From Frigoribacterium sp. PhB116 (GTDB lineage: Bacteria > Actinomycetota > Actinomycetes > Actinomycetales > Microbacteriaceae): a DNA stretch of 64,000 nt. Under the pieces are notes generated by a model that did not search any database, was not told the DNA's origin, and saw only the letters and a list, made by a program, of their open reading frames with translations. Below are positions 36,414 to 46,610 of the stretch, piece by piece; the first letter of the stretch is position 1; every line of letters begins with the position of its first letter. The translations under genes and the position numbers were made by a program. The stretch is from positions 434,001 through 498,000 of the forward strand of contig NZ_SOBE01000001.1 in the NCBI RefSeq assembly GCF_004364285.1, given 5' to 3'.

Positions 36414-37802
36414 TCAGTCCCAGCCGCCCAGGTAGGCGGCGAGCGACGGCTCGCCCTCGACGCGCTCGCACCAGGTCGCGGCGACGCGGCGGGTCTCGAA
36501 GAACTCCTCGGTGTCGTGGAGCCGGGCGCGGGCCTCGGCGCGGCTCGAGCGGATGCGCAGGACGGAGGTGCCGCCTCCTTCGTCCGGTGCGCCGTCCTGC
36601 CCGTCGCCCGTCGAGCCTTCCGTGACCTCGACGGTGCCGAGGGCCCCGACGCCCACTGAGGAGACCGCCTCGAGCAGGGGGGCAGCGTCGCGGACGCGCA
36701 CCGGGGCCGGCAGGTCGACGGTCACCCGCGCCGTGCGCGTCGCCTTGGCGGCCACCTCGTCCGAGGCGCCGACGACCCGCGCGTCGGCGGCGAAGACGGA
36801 CAGGTGCTCGTCGGGCACCACGACGACGGAGCCGGGCAGCGCGGCCAGGACGGTGTCGACGCAGAGCCAGGCGGTGCCCGCCGAGGGCGCCGCGGCGAGC
36901 CGCACCAGCACGTCGGGGGTCGCCCCGCGCAGCCCTCGCGGCCGCGATCCCTCGACGGGGACGAGCCCGCTGAGCACGAGCGTCTCGCCGTTCTTCTGCC
37001 GCTGGCGGTCGACCGAGTGGCGGCCGGCCCAGTCCGGGCCGTCGTGCCAGGCGACGGCAGCCGGTTCGTGGGCGAGCAGCGCGCCCCCGCGCCAGGCACG
37101 CCAGGCCCACTCCCAGTCCTCTCCGCCGTAGGTCGTGAAGTCCTCGTCGAAGCCGCCGACGGTCTCGAGGAACGAACGGGAGCACGCGAGCACGGCGCCG
37201 ATGACGTGCCGGTACGAGCGGTCGTCGGAGTCGAGCAGGTCGCGGCTGGCGCGGTAGGCGTCGTCGAGCCAGCGCGGGGCGGGCAGCTCGTGCCGTGGCC
37301 CCTCCTGCTCGACAGGGGCGTCGACGGCGACGCCGCCGAAGTCGGCGTGGCGCCTCGTGCCGACGACGACGGCCTCCGGCGCGAGGGCGGGCAGCCTCGA
37401 CATGGCCGTCACCCAGCCGGGCTCGGGCGCCGTGTCGGCGTCGAGGAAGCAGAGCACCTCGCCCGTCGACGAGCGCACCCCGAGGTTGCGCGCCGCGGAG
37501 AGCCGGAAGCCTTCGTCGGCCTGGACCACCAGCCGGACGCCGTCGGGCACGCGGGGCGCCTCGGGCGAGCCGTCGTCGACAACGACGACCTCGAGCAGCT
37601 CGGCCGGGTGGTCCTGACGCGCGAGGGCGGCGAGGGTCCGGTCCAGCTCGGCCTGCTGGCGGTAGTGGGCCACGACCACGGAGACGGTCGGCAGCGGGTC
37701 GGGCACGAGGCCGTCGAGCAGGTCCCAGCGGTTGCCCGGCACTCCCCTGGGCTCCCTCAGGGCACGGGCGGGCGCCTCCTCGTCTCGTCGCTCGTCGGTC
37801 AC
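36414..37802 (-). CDS. Family 2 glycosyltransferase with GT27-like segment and extra C-terminal domain
   Basis: A 462-residue cytosolic GT-A enzyme. The nucleotide-sugar fold shows VSVVVAHYRQQAELDRTL, DDGS at about 76-79 and the metal-binding DAD at 121-123. Then GGFDEDF (216-222) and YGGED (225-229) mark the acceptor half, as in the galactosyltransferase/GT27-like C-terminal domain. After about 260 there is a further domain of about 200 residues that I do not recognise (LCVDTVLAALPGSVVVVPDE onward). The start is GTG at 37802, overlapping the stop of the upstream gene (GTGA). It is the last gene of the minus-strand arm of the cluster. Confidence 0.9.
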   Translation of the reverse strand: MTDERRDEEAPARALREPRGVPGNRWDLLDGLVPDPLPTVSVVVAHYRQQAELDRTLAALARQDHPAELLEVVVVDDGSPEAPRVPDGVRLVVQADEGFRLSAARNLGVRSSTGEVLCFLDADTAPEPGWVTAMSRLPALAPEAVVVGTRRHADFGGVAVDAPVEQEGPRHELPAPRWLDDAYRASRDLLDSDDRSYRHVIGAVLACSRSFLETVGGFDEDFTTYGGEDWEWAWRAWRGGALLAHEPAAVAWHDGPDWAGRHSVDRQRQKNGETLVLSGLVPVEGSRPRGLRGATPDVLVRLAAAPSAGTAWLCVDTVLAALPGSVVVVPDEHLSVFAADARVVGASDEVAAKATRTARVTVDLPAPVRVRDAAPLLEAVSSVGVGALGTVEVTEGSTGDGQDGAPDEGGGTSVLRIRSSRAEARARLHDTEEFFETRRVAATWCERVEGEPSLAAYLGGWD

Positions 37803-38854
37803 GGCGTCGCCCCCGCTCGCTCGCGGCCGCCCCACCACGCGAGGTACGCCGCCGCGACGTCGTCGATGTCGGGCGCTGTCCAGGCGTCGGGAGCCAGCCA
37901 GGTGGAGTCCGGGTCGGCGACGGCCCGCGCGACGGCCTCGGCGAGGGCGTCGGGATCGTCGTCGATCAGGCTGAGGGTGCCGGGCCGGAGCGCCGCCATC
38001 TCGCGGGAGTACCGCGTGTCGGGCACGATCGGGCGTCGCCCGGCGCCGATCCAGGTCGCGATCGAGCCCGACGCCGAGACGTGTCGGTGCACGGCGACCG
38101 GCACGGAGGCGCGGCGGCAGCGGTCGAGGAGCACCGCGTCGTCGAGGTACCCGGTCACGTCGAGGACGACCCCGTGGGAGGCGGCGTCCGACACGAGCTG
38201 GTCGGTCTCGGCCTCGTGCCCCGCGCTGGCACGGCCGAGCGCGGTGACGCGGAGCGACCCTGCCGCGTCGTCCCCGCGGGCCTGGAGCCGGGCGACGGCG
38301 TCGACGAGCTCCGCGTGGCCCTTGCCGGGGTAGACGAAGCCGATGACGGCGGCGGTGCCGTCGGCCGCGGGCCGTCCGGTCGGCGGCGGGGCGAGGTCCA
38401 CGGGGAGCGGGACGATGCCGGGTCGCACCCCGTCGGTCGTGTGCTCGGCGAGCAGCAGCGCCTCGTGCTCGCTGTTGACGACCGTGCCCGCCACGGCCTC
38501 GACCACGCGCCGGTAGCAGTCGCCGCGCCGGACGAGGTTGCGCTCGCCGTCGGACGGCTGGGGCAGGTCGTGCAGCGTGACCGTCAGGGCGACCCGGCCG
38601 GCGAGGTCGACGAGGCGGTCCGCGGCGTCCTCGGGCGACGTCGCCCACAGCCGGTCGGTGAAGTGCAGGTGGGCCGAGGCGGGCGGCCTGGGCCCGGTCA
38701 GGTCGGACGGCGAGACCGCGAGGTCCCGACCCGTGCGGCGGGCGACCGCGTCGGCGACGCGCCGGGCGAGGACGGTCACGCCGTGCTGCGGGTCGTCGGT
38801 CACGACGAGGGCAGGTGCCTCCGGGTGCGGCGCGGCGCGGTCGTCGGCGCTCAC
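37799..38854 (-). CDS. GT-B-type glycosyltransferase
   Basis: A 351-residue glycosyltransferase-like protein with a Rossmann-type N-terminal half (HLHFTDRLWATSPEDA, VALTVTLHDLPQ, TVVNSEHEALLLAEH) and a C-terminal half resembling GT4 (AVIGFVYPGKGHAELVDAV, VTGYLDDAVLLDRCRRASVPV, GSIATWIGAGRRPIVPD). The EX7E motif is not obvious, so activity is uncertain. The GTG at 38854 overlaps the WcbI-like gene's stop and its own stop overlaps the next glycosyltransferase start. No membrane segments. Confidence 0.82.
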   Translation of the reverse strand: MSADDRAAPHPEAPALVVTDDPQHGVTVLARRVADAVARRTGRDLAVSPSDLTGPRPPASAHLHFTDRLWATSPEDAADRLVDLAGRVALTVTLHDLPQPSDGERNLVRRGDCYRRVVEAVAGTVVNSEHEALLLAEHTTDGVRPGIVPLPVDLAPPPTGRPAADGTAAVIGFVYPGKGHAELVDAVARLQARGDDAAGSLRVTALGRASAGHEAETDQLVSDAASHGVVLDVTGYLDDAVLLDRCRRASVPVAVHRHVSASGSIATWIGAGRRPIVPDTRYSREMAALRPGTLSLIDDDPDALAEAVARAVADPDSTWLAPDAWTAPDIDDVAAAYLAWWGGRERAGATP

Positions 38855-39783
38855 GCGAGCCCCAGCAGCGCCAAGGAGTCGGCGTGGCGGGCGAGGCCGG
38901 CGTCGACGACCTGCGGCTCGCGCTCGTACCACCGGAGGTGCGCCTCCCGGACCTCCTCGCGGGGCACCCGGGTGCCCTCGACGATCCAGTGGTCGGTGGC
39001 CTCGTCGTCGAGCCCGAAGGCGTCGACGACCGCCTGCAGCCGCGGCGCGTGGACGCTGTCGAGCAGCTGCCGTCCGGGGTCGACGACGTGCTCGGACAGC
39101 CCCAGGCGATCGCGGACACGGGACGCGAGCGCCGTCCACACGGGGTTGCCCGGGTGGTTGAGGGTGCGCATCTGCGCGAACGACGGGTCGTCGAACAGGT
39201 CGGACGCGACCACCGCGTCGTGCGCCTCCTCGCGCTTCCGCAGCTCGTGCAGCGAGAGCGCGGCGACCGACCGGACCGACTCTGCGTCCAGCCGTGGGAC
39301 CGGGGTCGTCGTGCCGTCACGCCGGGCGGCCGCCTCGGCCAGCACGACGAGGTCGTGGTAGTCGACCAGCGGCGGCACCAGCGACGGGTCGTGCGGCGGC
39401 CGGACGATCGCCGACGTCGGGTAGAGGCCCGCGAAGCGGACGACGGGCACGGCGACGACGCGTGCCCCGGGGCCGAGCCGGCCGGTCAGCTGCCGCGTGC
39501 CGAGCGGGAGGTCGTGGTAGTCGTCGCGCACCGGCTGGGAGACCAGCACGGAGGCGCGGGCCAGCCAGCGGTCCAGGTGCGGCAGGTCGGCGGTGACGAG
39601 CTCGTGAACAGCAGGTGTCCGGACGGTGCGGAGGCCGCCCCCGTCGAGAGCGACCCGGAGCGACTCGGCCTGGCAGTTGCCGATCACGACGGCGACGGGA
39701 CCGTCGCCCTCGGGCTCGCCGAGACCGTAGAAATGCCCGTAGTGCCGGGTGCGGCCGTCGACGGCCGGGGTGTGCTGGGTCAT
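38851..39783 (-). CDS. WcbI-type polysaccharide biosynthesis putative acetyltransferase
   Basis: A 310-residue protein with the WcbI-like GNCQAESL motif at about 35-42 (VVIGNCQAE), followed by the long helical segments expected of the family (FAGLYPTSAIVRPPHDPSL, VSQPVRDDYHDLPLGTRQL, TLNHPGNPVWTALASRV). WcbI proteins bind CoA and are linked to capsule acetylation in Gram-negative bacteria. Here it leads the minus-strand arm of the glycosyltransferase cluster. The ATG at 39783 has GAGAGGCACC upstream. No capsule export genes are present, so the acceptor is unknown. Confidence 0.85.
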   Translation of the reverse strand: MTQHTPAVDGRTRHYGHFYGLGEPEGDGPVAVVIGNCQAESLRVALDGGGLRTVRTPAVHELVTADLPHLDRWLARASVLVSQPVRDDYHDLPLGTRQLTGRLGPGARVVAVPVVRFAGLYPTSAIVRPPHDPSLVPPLVDYHDLVVLAEAAARRDGTTTPVPRLDAESVRSVAALSLHELRKREEAHDAVVASDLFDDPSFAQMRTLNHPGNPVWTALASRVRDRLGLSEHVVDPGRQLLDSVHAPRLQAVVDAFGLDDEATDHWIVEGTRVPREEVREAHLRWYEREPQVVDAGLARHADSLALLGLA

Positions 39784-40035
39784 GGTGCCTCTCCGTGGCG
39801 TCCCGCAGGTGGCAGACGCGACGACCCCATCGTGCTGGATGGCGCCCCGTGAGGGCCACTCTGCGTCACCGGGCACACAGGCCCTTCTCCGGCTATGGTG
39901 CAGGAAGGCCGCTCCCATCGGCCCCTCCCTCGACGCGAACCGGGCCCCCGGTCTCCCCAGGGTCCCCGAGTCGCCCCGGCTCACCTCCCGACGGTCTGCC
40001 CGACCGTCGCGCCCCGACTGAGCCGAGGAGGCCCG
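39784..40035. promoter_or_regulatory. Divergent promoter region of the glycosyltransferase cluster
   Basis: The 252-bp gap between the two divergent arms must hold both promoters. On the plus strand TATGGT (39894-39899) is a -10 candidate. I see no convincing -35 and no strong operator palindrome. Confidence 0.4.
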
Positions 40036-41238
40036 ATGATCGACACCCCGCCGCCCGCCCGCGACGCCCTGCGCGTCGCGTCCGTGCCCGCCGGCCACCC
40101 CTACGTCCGCCACCTCGAGCCGGTCGACGACTCCGCCGTCGCGCGGGTCGTCGTCCGTCTCGCCGACCCGCTGCCCGACCCCTCGGAGCCCGCCCGCTGG
40201 TGGCCGCCCGTCGTGCTCGACGCCGGCTGGATCGCCGAGCACGCCGCCCAGGTCGACGTGCTGCACGTGCACTTCGGCACCGAGTCGTACGACCTCGAGC
40301 ACCTCCGCCGCGTCGTCGACGCCGCCCGTGCCGCACGGCTGCCGATCGTCCACACCGTGCACGACCTCGTGAACCCGCAGCTGGTGGACCAGGCGCCGCA
40401 CCGCGCCCACCTGGGCCTGCTCGTCACCGAGGCCGACGAGGTGCTCACCCTGACGGAGGGAGCCGCCGACGAGGTCGAGCGCACCTTCGGGCGCCGGCCC
40501 GTCGTCGTGCCGCACCCGCACCTCCTTCCCCTCGACTCGGCAGCCCCGACCGGCGCCGCGCACGACGAGGTCGTCGTCGGCGTCAGCCTGCGCGACCTGC
40601 GCCCCAACGTCGACGGACCGGGCTCCGTCGCGACCCTGATCGCGGCCGCCGGGCTGCTGGCCGAGGACGGTCGGCCCGTCGCCGTGCGGGTCGACGTCAA
40701 CGAGCGCGTCCGCGACGCGGCGGCGCTCGCCGAGGTGCGGGCCCTCGTCGCCGACGCGCCGGGTCATCTCGACGTCTCGCTCGCGGTCCACCCGCGGCTC
40801 GACGACGACGAGCTGGCGGAGGCGCTGGCCGACCTCGACGTCGTCGTGCTGCCGTACTCGCACGGGACGCACTCCGGCTGGGTCGAGCTGAGCTGGGACC
40901 TGGGCGTGCCCGTCGCAGCACCGCGGGTGGGCCACGTCGCCGACCAGCACCCCGCCGCCGTGGACACCGCGTCCTTCGACGCCGGCGACGCCGGCCAGCT
41001 GGCGGCCGCCGTCTCCTCGCTCCTGCGGGCGCGCGGCGACGCTCCCACCCGGCCCGGCTCAGCGGCCCGACGGGCCCTCGTGGCGGAGCGCCGCGAGCAG
41101 CGACGGGCCCAGCGGGGCGAGATCGCGCAGGCGCACCTCGCGGCGTACGAGCGCGCCGTCGTCACGGCCGCGGCCCGTCACGCGTCCGGTGCCACCGAGC
41201 CCACCTCCTCCGCCCGGCCCTCGGAGCTGGTCTCGTGA
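40036..41238 (+). CDS. GT-B-type glycosyltransferase, first gene of plus-strand arm
   Basis: A 400-residue glycosyltransferase-like protein. An N-terminal Rossmann half contains VDVLHVHFGTESYDLEHLRR, IVHTVHDLVNPQL and TLTEGAADEVERTFGRRPVVVPHP. The C-terminal half contains VAVRVDVNERVRDAA and the DLDVVVLPYSHGTHSGWVEL region, where a GT4 nucleotide-sugar site would lie; the classical EX7E is not clear. The ATG at 40036 follows GAGGAGGCCCG, an excellent ribosome-binding site. The stop overlaps the next gene's GTG. The Arg-rich C-terminal 40 residues look disordered. Confidence 0.85.
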   Translation: MIDTPPPARDALRVASVPAGHPYVRHLEPVDDSAVARVVVRLADPLPDPSEPARWWPPVVLDAGWIAEHAAQVDVLHVHFGTESYDLEHLRRVVDAARAARLPIVHTVHDLVNPQLVDQAPHRAHLGLLVTEADEVLTLTEGAADEVERTFGRRPVVVPHPHLLPLDSAAPTGAAHDEVVVGVSLRDLRPNVDGPGSVATLIAAAGLLAEDGRPVAVRVDVNERVRDAAALAEVRALVADAPGHLDVSLAVHPRLDDDELAEALADLDVVVLPYSHGTHSGWVELSWDLGVPVAAPRVGHVADQHPAAVDTASFDAGDAGQLAAAVSSLLRARGDAPTRPGSAARRALVAERREQRRAQRGEIAQAHLAAYERAVVTAAARHASGATEPTSSARPSELVS

Positions 41239-42452
41239 CGGCCGTGTCCGGGACGGGCGCCGCCTCCTCGTCGACCGGGCTCGTCGAGCCAGCGCGCACG
41301 GCCGCGCGCCCGCGCCGCATCGTCGTCGTGGCTCCTCTGCGCTACCCGATCGCCGAGCCCCACGCGGGCGGCCTGGAGTCGAGCGTGTGGCACCAGGTGC
41401 GCGTCCTCCGTTCCCGTGGCCACCAGGTGCTGCTCTGCGCGGTCGAGGGCAGCGACCACCTGCTCGGCGGGCCCCCCGAGTTCGCCCTTCCCGCCGTGCA
41501 CTGGGACGACCCGGCCGACGCCACCGACTCGACCTACCCCGCCGGCTACCTGGACGTGGCCGTGCCGGCGCTCCACCGCGCCCTGGACTGGATCCGCGAC
41601 CACGCCGACCAGATCGACGTCGTCGAGAACCACTCACTCAGCGGCCACGTGCTCTCGCGGGCCGGCGAGCTCGGCGTGCCCGTCGTCTCGACCCTGCACA
41701 CCCCGACGCTGCCCGACCTGCTCGAGCACCACCGGGCCGGCGTCGAGCCGCGCAGCGCGTTCCTCGCCGTGAGCGAGCACACGGCGGCCGTCTGGCGAGC
41801 CGAGGGCGTCGAGGCGCGCGTGCTGCCCAACGCGGTGGACACGGACCTCTGGCCCCTCGGCCCCGGCGGCGACGACCTGGTCTGGACCGGGCGGATCGTG
41901 CCCGAGAAGGGGCCGCACCTCGCGATCGAGGCCGCGCGCCTCGCCGGCCGACGCATCGTGCTGGCCGGGCGGGTCGGGGACGTCGACTACCACGAGTCGA
42001 TGGTCGTGCCCCTGCTGGGGGCGGACGCCGAGCACGTGGGGCCGCTGCGGCAGCCCGAGCTCGCCGACCTCGTCGGCCGGTCGGCCTGCGCCCTCGTCAC
42101 GCCCTGCTGGGAGGAGCCGTTCGGGCTCGTCATCGCGGAGGCGTTGTCGACCGGCACGCCCGTCGCCTCCTTCGCGACCGGCGGCGTCCCCGAGGTCGTC
42201 GGCTCGAGCATCGGGGCAGGTCTCGTCCCGCGGGACGACGTGGCCGGGCTCGCGCACCTCGTGGCCGGGCTCGCCGCGGAGGCCTCGACGACGCCGGGCT
42301 TCCGCCGCAGGGTGCGGGCCGACGCGGTGGCACGCTTCTCGTTGCACCGCCGTGCCGAGGTGGTCGAGGAGGTGCACGAGGCTCTGGTCGCGGGCCACCT
42401 CACCGGTGCCGGGAGGGCCAGGGCCCTGCTCGCCCCCGAGGCCGTCGCGTGA
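41235..42452 (+). CDS. GT4-family glycosyltransferase
   Basis: A 405-residue GT-B enzyme with clear GT4 features: RIVVVAPLRYPIAEPHAGGLE at the N-terminal Rossmann fold, LPNAVDTDLW, VWTGRIVPEKGPHLAIEAARL, and the nucleotide-sugar EX7E motif in EEPFGLVIAEALSTG (about 291-305). The GTG at 41235 overlaps the previous stop (GTGA). It is the best-preserved GT-B enzyme of the cluster. Cytosolic; donor sugar unknown. Confidence 0.92.
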   Translation: MTAVSGTGAASSSTGLVEPARTAARPRRIVVVAPLRYPIAEPHAGGLESSVWHQVRVLRSRGHQVLLCAVEGSDHLLGGPPEFALPAVHWDDPADATDSTYPAGYLDVAVPALHRALDWIRDHADQIDVVENHSLSGHVLSRAGELGVPVVSTLHTPTLPDLLEHHRAGVEPRSAFLAVSEHTAAVWRAEGVEARVLPNAVDTDLWPLGPGGDDLVWTGRIVPEKGPHLAIEAARLAGRRIVLAGRVGDVDYHESMVVPLLGADAEHVGPLRQPELADLVGRSACALVTPCWEEPFGLVIAEALSTGTPVASFATGGVPEVVGSSIGAGLVPRDDVAGLAHLVAGLAAEASTTPGFRRRVRADAVARFSLHRRAEVVEEVHEALVAGHLTGAGRARALLAPEAVA

Positions 42453-43513
42453 CCGCGCGTCCCCTCGTCGGCTGGTATGTGCACCACCACGGTGCCGGCC
42501 ACCTGACGCGGCTGCTGGCGGTGCGGCCGCACCTCGAGGCCGACGTGGTCGTCTTCAGCTCCCTCGCTGCACCGGCCGTCCTGCCCGAGGCCACGACCTG
42601 GCTGCAGCTCCCGCGGGACGACCACGACGTGGTCGCGCCCGACGGCACGACCCGGGCCCCCGGCGACCCCGAGTCGGGCACCGACCCGACGGTGCGCGGC
42701 ATGCTGCACTGGGCGCCGCTGCACCACGACGGCCACGCCGGGCGCCTCGCCGCCGTCGCGGCCTGGATCGCGCACGCCCGGCCCCGGGCGTTCGTCGTCG
42801 ACGTCTCCGTCGAGGTCACGCTGCTCGTCCGCCTGCTCGGGGTGCCGCCCGTCGTCGTCGCCCAGCCCGGCGACCGCTCGGACGCTCCGCACGCCCTCGG
42901 CTGGGACGCGGCTGACCGTGTCCTCGCGCCCTGGGCGGAGGGGCTGCACGTCTCGTCCGCTCTCGACCGCGTCCGGGACAGGGTCCGGTTCGTGGGCGGG
43001 ATCTCCCGGCACGACGGCCGGGTCGACGGCCCCGGCTCACCGGCCCCCGGCACCGTCCTGGTGCTGGCCGGCGGGGGCGCGGAGGGTCGCGAGGGGCTCG
43101 CGCAGCGCGTCGCCGAGGCCTCGAGGGCCACGCCTGCCTGGCGCTGGTCCCTGCTCGGCGCCTCGGCCGACAGCTGGGTCGACGACCCGTGGCCTCTCCT
43201 CCGCCGAGCCGAGGTCGTCGTCTCGGCCGCCGGCCAGAACAGCGTCGCCGATCTCGCGGCCGCCGGCGCCCGCGCCGTCGTCGTCCCCCAGGACCGCCCG
43301 TTCGACGAGCAGCGGACGACGGGGCGCCTCCTCGCCGAGCGCGGGCTCGCCGTCGTGCCCGATCACGGCCGTGCCGACCACGGCTGGCCCGCGCCGGACG
43401 CGTGGCCCGAGCTGCTCGACCGGGCGTGCGCGCTCGCTCCCGACTGGTCGCTCTGGCAGGTGGACGGCGCCGCTGCCCGAGCGGCCGCGGTGATCTCCGA
43501 GGTCGCCCGGTGA
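42449..43513 (+). CDS. MurG-like (GT28-type) glycosyltransferase
   Basis: A 354-residue GT-B protein. The N-terminal GWYVHHHGAGHLTRLLAV has the Gly/His-rich loop of MurG/UGT-like enzymes, and the C-terminal half has LVLAGGGAEGREGLAQRV and SAAGQNSVADLAAAGARAV followed by VPQDRPFDEQ, matching the donor-binding region of GT28. The GTG at 42449 overlaps the previous stop, and its own stop overlaps the next start. It is not the cell-wall murG, which belongs to the dcw cluster; here the acceptor is unknown. Confidence 0.86.
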   Translation: MTARPLVGWYVHHHGAGHLTRLLAVRPHLEADVVVFSSLAAPAVLPEATTWLQLPRDDHDVVAPDGTTRAPGDPESGTDPTVRGMLHWAPLHHDGHAGRLAAVAAWIAHARPRAFVVDVSVEVTLLVRLLGVPPVVVAQPGDRSDAPHALGWDAADRVLAPWAEGLHVSSALDRVRDRVRFVGGISRHDGRVDGPGSPAPGTVLVLAGGGAEGREGLAQRVAEASRATPAWRWSLLGASADSWVDDPWPLLRRAEVVVSAAGQNSVADLAAAGARAVVVPQDRPFDEQRTTGRLLAERGLAVVPDHGRADHGWPAPDAWPELLDRACALAPDWSLWQVDGAAARAAAVISEVAR

Positions 43514-44358
43514 CGGGGCGGCAGCCCGCGCCGACCGGCTCGACGGTCGCGGTCACGCTCTGCTCGGCCGCCCGTCTCGACCACCTCCTGCCGCAGCGCG
43601 AGGCCCTGGCGCGCCTCCGGCCGTCGGTGCCCCACGTCGTCGTCTGGCTCGACGAGACGCCGGCGCCCGCGCTCCCCGAGCTGGCCGAGGCCCACGTGCT
43701 GCACGTGCCGCCGGGACCCGACGGCCTGCGCCTCGCGGCCGGCAGGAACGCAGGTGCCGAGCAGGCGATCGCCCTCGGTGCCTCGCTCGTGGTGTTCCTC
43801 GACGCGGACTGCGTTCCCGGCCCCGACTTGGTCGTGCGGTACGAGGCCGCCGCGTCGGCGCACCCCGACGCGCTGCTCTGCGGCCCGGTCACGTACCTGC
43901 CCGAGGGCCACGTCGGCCTCGACGACCACTCGCTCGACGCCGCGACGCGGCCGCACGCGGCGCGCCCCTCGCCCGAGGCCGGCGAGACCGTCGTCGCGGG
44001 GCACGACCAGTACGCGCTGTTCTGGTCGCTCTCGTTCGCCCTCGCCGCCGACACCTGGGCGCGGACGGGCGGCTTCGAGCCCGGCTACGAGGGCTACGGC
44101 GGCGAGGACACCGACTTCGCCTTCACCGCCCGGTCGCTCGGCCTCCCGCTCGTCTGGGTCGGCGGCGCGCACGCGTACCACCAGTGGCACCCCACGACGG
44201 CGCCGCCCTGGCAGCACCTCGACGACATCCTCCGCAACGGCCGGCGGTTCGCCGAGCGGTGGGGCGAGTGGCCGATGGGCGGCTGGCTCGAGGCGTTCCG
44301 CGAAGGAGGCGCGGTGCGCGTCGCCGAGGACGGCGGCTGGGAGCGCGTCACGGCCTGA
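43510..44358 (+). CDS. Family 2 glycosyltransferase with GT27-like C-terminal segment
   Basis: A 282-residue GT-A enzyme. VAVTLCSAARLDHLLPQREAL begins the fold, LAAGRNAGAEQAI and VVFLDADCVPGPDLV (DAD at about 98-100) form the donor/metal site, and GGFEPGYEGYGGEDTDFAF (188-206) is the acceptor-side motif also found in the last gene of the other arm. The GTG at 43510 overlaps the previous stop. No signal or membrane segment. It ends the plus-strand arm. Confidence 0.9.
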   Translation: MTGRQPAPTGSTVAVTLCSAARLDHLLPQREALARLRPSVPHVVVWLDETPAPALPELAEAHVLHVPPGPDGLRLAAGRNAGAEQAIALGASLVVFLDADCVPGPDLVVRYEAAASAHPDALLCGPVTYLPEGHVGLDDHSLDAATRPHAARPSPEAGETVVAGHDQYALFWSLSFALAADTWARTGGFEPGYEGYGGEDTDFAFTARSLGLPLVWVGGAHAYHQWHPTTAPPWQHLDDILRNGRRFAERWGEWPMGGWLEAFREGGAVRVAEDGGWERVTA

Positions 44359-44407: not shown

Positions 44408-44755
44408 TCATCCCGACCGGAGCCGGGCGTGCTCGGCGGTGCGCTCGCTGAGGAACGAACAGAGCCGTGCGACGGCGCTCACCTCGGCCGCCAGGGCCGT
44501 GACCTGCGCTGACGTCGCCTCGGCGGCGTGCTCGCGGGCCTCGAACGTGACCGTCCACTCGGGCGACCCACCGATCTTGCGGCGCAGGTACACCTCGGTC
44601 CCGGACGTCTCGAGACGCAGGACGACGAGCCCGGTGTCGACCGTCGTCTCGTCCCACGACGTGTCCACGGCCTGCGGTGCGGCGGCGTCGACTTGCTCGG
44701 ACGAGTGGAACTCGTCGATCCAGCCCGTGAGCTCGTCCATCGCCAGTCGCGGCAC
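44408..44755 (-). CDS. Hypothetical protein, 115 residues
   Basis: Small acidic protein with a predicted beta-rich middle (TGLVVLRLETSGTEVYLRRKIGG, then WTVTFEARE) and a helical C-terminus (VTALAAEVSAVARLCSFLSER). No domain, signal peptide or membrane segment recognised. The GTG at 44755 has AGGAGGAG eight bases upstream, which supports a real gene. It lies between the plus-strand glycosyltransferase arm and the alcohol dehydrogenase gene on the minus strand. Confidence 0.6.
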   Translation of the reverse strand: MPRLAMDELTGWIDEFHSSEQVDAAAPQAVDTSWDETTVDTGLVVLRLETSGTEVYLRRKIGGSPEWTVTFEAREHAAEATSAQVTALAAEVSAVARLCSFLSERTAEHARLRSG

Positions 44756-46010: not shown

Positions 46011-46086
46011 TGGTGGGCGATACCGGACTCGAACCGATGACCTCTTCCGTGTGAAGGAAGCGCGCTACCAACTGCGCCAATCGCCC
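46011..46086 (-). tRNA. tRNA-Val (anticodon CAC), CCA encoded
   Basis: Minus-strand cloverleaf: acceptor GGGCGAT pairs with ATCGCCC, discriminator A, then encoded CCA. The anticodon stem CTTCC/GGAAG holds the loop TTCACAC (CAC, reads GUG). The T-arm contains GGTTCGAGTCC. A TAGTAT -10 element lies at 46109-46104. Confidence 0.95.
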
Positions 46087-46103
46087 CTGATCGGGACTCG
46101 TCG

Positions 46104-46109
46104 ATACTA
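46104..46109 (-). promoter_or_regulatory. -10 element for tRNA-Val(CAC)
   Basis: Minus-strand TAGTAT, about 18 bases before the mature tRNA 5' end. The -35 region is not convincing. Confidence 0.4.
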
Positions 46110-46201
46110 GTGGATCTTGTGACCCGGGCGCCATTCGAGGAGGCCGGCTGCGCCTCCGGCGAGGCGTCGAGGAGGCGACCAAGACACGAACATCTCTCGA
46201 T

Positions 46202-46230
46202 TTGTTTTCTGTCCAGGGTCTGGGTAGTGT
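46202..46230 (+). promoter_or_regulatory. Promoter of the Gly-Cys-Val tRNA cluster
   Basis: TTGTTT (46202-46207), a 17-bp spacer, then TAGTGT (46225-46230). Transcription would begin near 46237, about 25 bases before the first tRNA. Confidence 0.6.
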
Positions 46231-46261
46231 TCTTCTTGTTCGCAGGAATGCAGAACGAAGT

Positions 46262-46333
46262 GCGGATGTGGCGCAGTGGTAGCGCATCACCTTGCCAAGG
46301 TGAGGGTCGCGAGTTCGAATCTCGTCATCCGCT
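46262..46333 (+). tRNA. tRNA-Gly (anticodon GCC)
   Basis: Acceptor GCGGATG pairs with CATCCGC; discriminator T; no encoded CCA. The anticodon loop CTTGCCA carries GCC. The T-arm includes GAGTTCGAATCTC. First of three plus-strand tRNA genes. Confidence 0.95.
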
Positions 46334-46395
46334 CGAGTGTAAAGCTCACCAGAGGGAGTCCACCGATGGTGGCTCCCTCTGGGAGTATCTCATCT

Positions 46396-46469
46396 GGTGG
46401 AGTGGCCGAGAGGCGAGGCACCGGCCTGCAAAGCCGTTCACGCGGGTTCAAATCCCGTCTCCACCTCCA
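46396..46469 (+). tRNA. tRNA-Cys (anticodon GCA), CCA encoded
   Basis: Acceptor GGTGGAG pairs with CTCCACC, discriminator T as expected for tRNA-Cys, then encoded CCA. The anticodon loop CTGCAAA carries GCA. The T-arm includes GGGTTCAAATCCC. Confidence 0.95.
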
Positions 46470-46531
46470 TGGATCATCCTCTGGGTCTATGATCGATTCG
46501 TCTCCCGAGACGATGACAACTGAACAAGCAT

Positions 46532-46603
46532 GAGCGATTGGCGCAGCGGTAGCGCGCTTCCCTGACACGGAAGAGGTCGCTGGTTCGATCCCAGTATCGC
46601 TCA
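46532..46603 (+). tRNA. tRNA-Val (anticodon GAC)
   Basis: Acceptor GAGCGAT pairs with ATCGCTC, discriminator A, CCA not encoded. The anticodon loop CTGACAC carries GAC. The T-arm includes TGGTTCGATCCCA. Its D-arm and anticodon stem are nearly identical to those of tRNA-Val(CAC) on the other strand. Confidence 0.95.
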
Positions 46604-46610
46604 CACAGAG

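Follow-up and report, generated by a model that had tools for sequence, protein, structure and literature searches.

Six soluble glycosyltransferases and a WcbI-family protein form a co-inherited two-module pathway in actinobacteria

The methylglucose lipopolysaccharides (MGLP) and methylmannose polysaccharides (MMP) of mycobacteria are cytosolic acylated oligo- or polysaccharides. Other described systems close to the locus considered here are the glucosylsucrose synthase TeGSS (structure 7fg9), the UDP-Glc:tetrahydrobiopterin glucosyltransferase (5zer), the chondroitin polymerase K4CP (2z86, 2z87) and WcbI of the Burkholderia pseudomallei capsule cluster (4bqn). The acetyltransferase activity of WcbI itself is still putative, and the protein has been proposed to depend on a partner for presentation of the acceptor (PMC4104973). 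The wps and gsf exopolysaccharide clusters of Actinoplanes missouriensis, which are likewise actinobacterial multi-gene glycan clusters, encode Wzx/Wzy or GtrA membrane proteins and, in wps-1, sulfotransferases (PMC13390465). Here we describe seven genes, A to G, in a 64,000-nucleotide stretch of the Frigoribacterium sp. PhB116 chromosome (contig 1, positions 434001–498000; hereafter the window), which encode six glycosyltransferases and a WcbI homologue. They are a genuine co-inherited pathway composed of two sub-modules, D-E-F-G and C-B-A, each of which is also found separately. The enzyme families are known, and their conserved combination appears to be undescribed within the databases and literature searched.

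The set lies at positions 470414–478358 of contig 1 in two divergent arms, C-B-A on the minus strand and D-E-F-G on the plus strand, with the following window coordinates:

Gene A, 36414..37802, minus strand: two-domain GT-A glycosyltransferase (GT2) with a chondroitin-polymerase-like fold, third in the C-B-A arm
Gene B, 37799..38854, minus strand: divergent GT-B (GT4-like) glycosyltransferase, second in the C-B-A arm
Gene C, 38851..39783, minus strand: WcbI-family putative O-acetyltransferase, first in the C-B-A arm
Divergent intergenic region, 39784..40035, no strand: start regions of both arms
Gene D, 40036..41238, plus strand: GT-B glycosyltransferase without a Pfam family, first in the D-E-F-G arm
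Gene E, 41235..42452, plus strand: GT4 glycosyltransferase related to glucosylsucrose synthase and tetrahydrobiopterin glucosyltransferase
Gene F, 42449..43513, plus strand: MurG/GT28-like GT-B glycosyltransferase
Gene G, 43510..44358, plus strand: GT-A glycosyltransferase (GT2/GT27-like, Glyco_transf_7C)

An earlier note, made from the window sequence alone, had described seven open reading frames (ORFs) in two divergent arms, joined by GTGA overlaps and encoding proteins that lack membrane segments. We confirmed the coordinates of all seven and the 4-bp GTGA overlap at all five intra-arm junctions. None of the proteins has a membrane-like segment, their highest 19-residue hydropathy being 0.98–1.93 versus 2.67–2.72 in three membrane proteins of the window.

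A query of named genomes with gene C yielded 59 loci, all of which were then profile-searched; gene calls around the loci were made with a codon-usage caller, the DNA being GC-rich. The complete seven-gene set was contiguous in 33 of these 59 loci, from about ten genera (Frigoribacterium, Frondihabitans, the Actinoplanes group, Subtercola, Serinibacter, Agrococcus, Labedella, Microbacterium, Rhodococcoides and, in rearranged form, a metagenome-assembled genome of the Nocardioidaceae). The flanks outside the seven genes are unrelated between genomes. In split layouts, second loci supply the missing genes and the E profile locates the E orthologue elsewhere in 18/18 genomes tested, a count that leaves out eight further gene-C loci, one of them truncated at a contig end. 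Four break-ups were seen: C|ABDEFG, CBA|DEFG, DCBA|FGE and CA|DEFGB. The conserved co-occurrence that the earlier note had put forward as a check was borne out; since the split genomes still carry all seven genes, these are not independently scattered, nor was the set found beside flippase or polymerase genes, the other arrangement that the note had named as speaking against it. As a separate observation, seven Microbacterium loci (L045, L049, L051, L053, L056, L057 and L059) have a lone gene C in conserved surroundings, flanked on one side by the gene for a CGNR-type protein of 183 aa and on the other by a TetR/MFS pair, and in L045 and L049, the two Microbacterium genomes checked, the remaining six genes are at a second locus.

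Analysis of 119 relatives showed a nested pattern of presence, with gene C (28 genomes) within B (31) and B within D and G (35 and 34), and C was never found without B and D. Genes C and D co-occur at 28:0:7:84 (both, C only, D only, neither), giving Fisher p values of 5e-21 by genome and 2e-11 by genus, uncorrected for shared ancestry. The 4-bp overlaps recur as well, at 50/50 CB, 55/57 BA, 54/56 DE, 55/64 EF and 55/60 FG junctions, and about 50% protein identity is retained between families. A chance cluster of glycosyltransferases is ruled out by the co-occurrence and the overlap conservation.

The two-module structure is evident from the distribution of the parts. The D-E-F-G core occurs alone in many lineages of Actinomycetota, at times with two D-like genes, and C-B-A with D alone occurs in some others; gene C was found nowhere in 14 of 15 core-only or D-only genomes. 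Pairwise protein distances correlate at 0.85–0.92 within D-E-F-G, 0.78–0.83 within C-B-A and less between the modules. We infer that D-E-F-G makes a core, to which B, A and C add extensions and decorations. A scan of 396 Actinomycetota genomes with gene D gave 23 strong matches (∼ 6%). Three deep-branching loci (L134, L137 and L139, in genomes G345, G268 and G395) contain two or three genes resembling D, some of which flank E-F; such multiple genes suggest an ancestral core with paralogous D enzymes.

The seven-gene pathway is horizontally spread in soil and leaf actinobacteria. In the concatenated tree, six species of the Actinoplanes group stand beside Frigoribacterium; Microbacterium, a member of the same family as Frigoribacterium, is placed elsewhere. 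Frigoribacterium, Frondihabitans and Microbacterium each have two distant versions that differ in layout, and the D-E-F-G core is carried on Rhodococcus megaplasmids. Annotated seven-gene records on plasmids were sought only via gene D, and just the Rhodococcus core was found. The earlier note was right in taking the set for a genuine pathway; it overlooked that there are two modules, that these have spread horizontally and that some copies lie in stress islands or beside sulfotransferases, as described below.

Pfam, profile and fold evidence agree on six glycosyltransferases and a WcbI-type protein, as had been proposed; no NCBIfam model scores above its cut-off for any of the seven. Gene C belongs to PF18588 (WcbI; 6.7e-68, 229 bits versus a cut-off of 29.2), and its profile matches 4bqn (5e-10) with equivalents of the coenzyme A-contacting residues Cys14 and His201 aligned and conserved; GNCQAE and NHPGN motifs are present in 28/28 homologues. 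By sequence, it is a putative acetyltransferase that, unlike WcbI, whose capsule locus includes export genes, stands among soluble glycosyltransferases. Gene A matches PF00535 (GT2, 2.3e-18) and PF02709 (Glyco_transf_7C), its homologues carry a D-x-D motif in 26/28 and GGED in 28/28 cases, and its AlphaFold model (pLDDT 89) has chondroitin polymerase 2z87 as the top Foldseek match (1.7e-26). It shares the two-domain GT-A architecture of K4CP over almost the whole length, but its second domain is shorter and the set has no polymer-export genes. Gene G also matches PF02709 (4e-5) and chondroitin synthase (9e-9), with LD[AV]DC and GYG[GA]EDTD motifs in 21/21 homologues. Gene F matches PF04101 (Glyco_tran_28_C, 1.1e-5) and, by profile, MurG 7d1i (1e-5) and YjiC (2e-3).

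The folds of A and G are similar to that of GT27 polypeptide GalNAc-transferases, which brings protein glycosylation into consideration. In serine-rich-repeat adhesin systems, soluble glycosyltransferases act in sequence together with an acetylating partner, and by the same logic the present enzymes might add sugars stepwise to a protein, cytosolic or exported, and then acetylate it. Neither a conserved target protein with repeats nor an accessory Sec gene was found near any locus, the target having been sought at the loci rather than genome-wide, and we regard this explanation as very unlikely.

Gene D has no Pfam match. Its model (pLDDT 88) has a GT-B fold and matches, at 1e-12 to 1e-11, MshA (3c48, 3c4q), the methylmannose polysaccharide mannosyltransferase 7qsg and BshA; a GT[HQ]SGW motif is found in 24/24 homologues. 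The MMP enzyme is thus among the top fold matches of D, but the locus sets contain no conserved methyltransferase, hydrolase or branching partner of the kind seen in MGLP/MMP systems. Gene B is homologous to D (hhalign, 96%), matches PF13692 (Glyco_trans_1_4) at 7e-4, under the cut-off, and in a profile search weakly matches sucrose-phosphate synthase 6kih (5e-4). Gene E is a GT4 enzyme (PF00534/PF13439) with an E-x-FG-x3-AE motif in 21/23 homologues, and its top full-length profile matches within the GT4 subgroup are TeGSS (7fg9, 1e-45) and the tetrahydrobiopterin glucosyltransferase 5zer (2e-44), whereas PimA reaches only 5e-19. It retains equivalents of the UDP-contacting Arg179 and Lys184 and the W-x-EPFGL motif of TeGSS. 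Tyr18, which in TeGSS contacts sucrose and UDP, is absent (PPPAYGGVE aligns with the consensus EPHAGGLE), so the acceptor of E probably differs from that of TeGSS; moreover, TeGSS was characterized alone and E is one of seven enzymes.

The match of E to tetrahydrobiopterin glucosyltransferases (5zer and 9v0l, both ∼ 2e-44) raises the question of a glycosylated redox cofactor, in which E would glucosylate a pterin or similar molecule and the other enzymes would extend it. The second NCBIfam match of gene A is the mycofactocin glycosyltransferase MftF, but its 87 bits are far under the cut-off of 280. Photolyase-like genes stand beside the set in L006 and L133, although these are only two of many contexts and the genes were recognized by eye, without a profile. 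With cofactor biosynthesis genes unlinked, we consider this explanation unlikely. An anti-phage defence system was ruled out, as PADLOC returned no matches.

The earlier note had pointed to the lack of a linked exporter, and this extends well beyond the window. No sugar-nucleotide gene, exporter or polymerase adjoins the window set, and no flippase, polymerase, ABC exporter, ligase or initiator is a conserved linked partner in more than 60 loci (based on gene calls at 59 loci with WcbI, 20 distant loci with D and 18 second loci, and on Pfam assignments of 109 genes neighbouring core-only loci). With no linked membrane or nucleotide-sugar genes and no linked PF02397, a Wzx/Wzy- or ABC-exported capsule, O-antigen or teichuronic acid locus was rejected; the Actinoplanes wps/gsf sporangium clusters were rejected as a published match because their genes differ and their membrane proteins are absent from the present set. 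Since membrane proteins never recur as conserved linked partners, the simplest reading is that a defined, decorated oligosaccharide or glycoside is assembled in the cytosol.

Alternatively, the seven enzymes might assemble an oligosaccharide on polyprenol or a lipid, which a general flippase encoded elsewhere would export for decoration of the cell wall or of a surface polymer. The founding member of the WcbI family sits in a capsule locus (PMC4104973), F (MurG-like) and A and G (K4CP-like) are similar to enzymes that make exported polymers, and the paired distant versions in Frigoribacterium, Microbacterium and Frondihabitans are reminiscent of surface glycans. PF02397 initiators occur in all D-positive relatives except one (assembly 73% complete), and the Frigoribacterium genome itself has two (contig 1, 310305, and contig 5, 87619), far from the module. 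Apart from the lack of linked export genes, this explanation has to contend with an enzyme set that is constant, whereas capsule loci swap members, and with 8 of 28 C-positive genomes, that of the window included, lacking a PF01943 flippase above the cut-off, in a transporter scan limited to that family. We regard it as possible, though on the unlikely side.

The logic of the pathway is well supported; from homology and context we infer the acceptor, donor sugars, step order, product, destination and role. At about an even chance, we propose a self-contained two-module pathway that builds a soluble, acetylated, defined oligosaccharide or glycoside in the cytosol, possibly protective under stress. 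The ancestral core, D, E, F and G, would assemble a short oligosaccharide of defined structure on an acceptor that is most likely a sugar or small soluble molecule; the chain would then be extended by B and A and acetylated by C. The closest solved relatives of E are soluble enzymes acting on small acceptors (sucrose, tetrahydrobiopterin), and D resembles MshA/BshA-type enzymes. Glucosylsucrose builds up in cyanobacteria during salt and heat stress (PMC9909042). Of the products suggested in the earlier note, a small molecule or defined oligosaccharide fits the homology of E and a storage polymer is disfavoured, as the set has no accompanying polymerizing or branching enzyme; cytosolic retention, a glycolipid or storage identity and acylation as the last step, also put forward there, are conjectural.

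A stress-island context is seen in several distant relatives. Two Rhodococcus plasmids, pRhX5 and pLP1, carry the core within ∼ 10 kb of genes for SigB/SigF-type sigma factors and ATP-binding regulators, in surroundings that also hold TspO and GAF or ANTAR proteins; on a third plasmid it stands beside FUSC, YihY and DUF3618 genes with no sigma gene in view. A GGTT-type −35 with a GGGTA −10 element, a SigF-type motif, precedes the first gene of 4 among 35 distant arms (0.12 expected; 0/200 Markov shuffles reached 4), several promoter patterns having been tried; it was also seen upstream of gene D on the USK10 plasmid. The 109 neighbours of core-only loci, tallied by Pfam without a matched background set, include catalases, ANTAR and GAF proteins and short-chain dehydrogenases, and further stress-type neighbours were noticed by eye only. 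The product of the pathway would probably be a soluble decorated oligosaccharide or glycoside, possibly protecting under general stress. The wider proposal, a widespread intracellular acetylated or sulfated hetero-oligosaccharide made by a mobile module of soluble glycosyltransferases that forms part of the general stress response of actinobacteria, as a stress-protective solute or signal, we consider rather unlikely.

Besides the trial of several patterns and the unmatched tally, a number of observations weigh against the proposed cytosolic pathway. No SigF-type motif was found with stricter patterns in the Microbacteriaceae versions, including the divergent intergenic region, which leaves no basis for claiming stress control in the window, and no stress genes were found at the Microbacteriaceae loci examined. 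GT4 homology does not fix the acceptor, and E lacks the acceptor-side tyrosine of TeGSS. A PF02397 (Bac_transf) initiator is present in 98 of the 119 relatives, and the product could be lipid-linked and exported via unlinked MOP or ABC proteins. Surface glycan loci, too, typically show the replacement of one version by a foreign one among members of a genus.

In five deep-branching loci (L135–L139), Stf0 or Sulfotransfer_3 sulfotransferases adjoin D or the core; products in these lineages are possibly sulfated, and sulfotransferases may take over the decorating role there.

The pathway has remained intact through horizontal transfer and shuffling and is unnamed in NCBIfam, which suggests a conserved metabolite that merits isolation. 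A limited literature search (open-licence papers on WcbI, Frigoribacterium, Stf0, SigF and glycosyltransferase clusters) found no description of the seven-gene set, in line with the view of the earlier note that the pathway is undescribed. Its nested modular design makes the biosynthetic order testable from natural genotypes, and a complete natural set containing a WcbI protein offers a route to the missing acceptor partner of that family.

Several minor features were seen near the modules. L126 (12714–17883) has a fusion of PIG-L deacetylase and NodS-type methyltransferase and an additional GT2 near the module, and L133 (1454–3901) has an acyl-CoA-dehydrogenase-like protein and a methyltransferase close to it; these extra genes are possibly another unnamed cluster. 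In the window, the set is flanked by an ABC uptake operon on one side and a Zn-alcohol dehydrogenase on the other. A 115-aa ORF without a Pfam family (44408–44755) adjoins gene G on the opposite strand, and a tRNA cluster, Val(cac), Gly, Cys and Val(gac), at 46011–46604, ∼ 1.7 kb past the module, is a possible integration hotspot.

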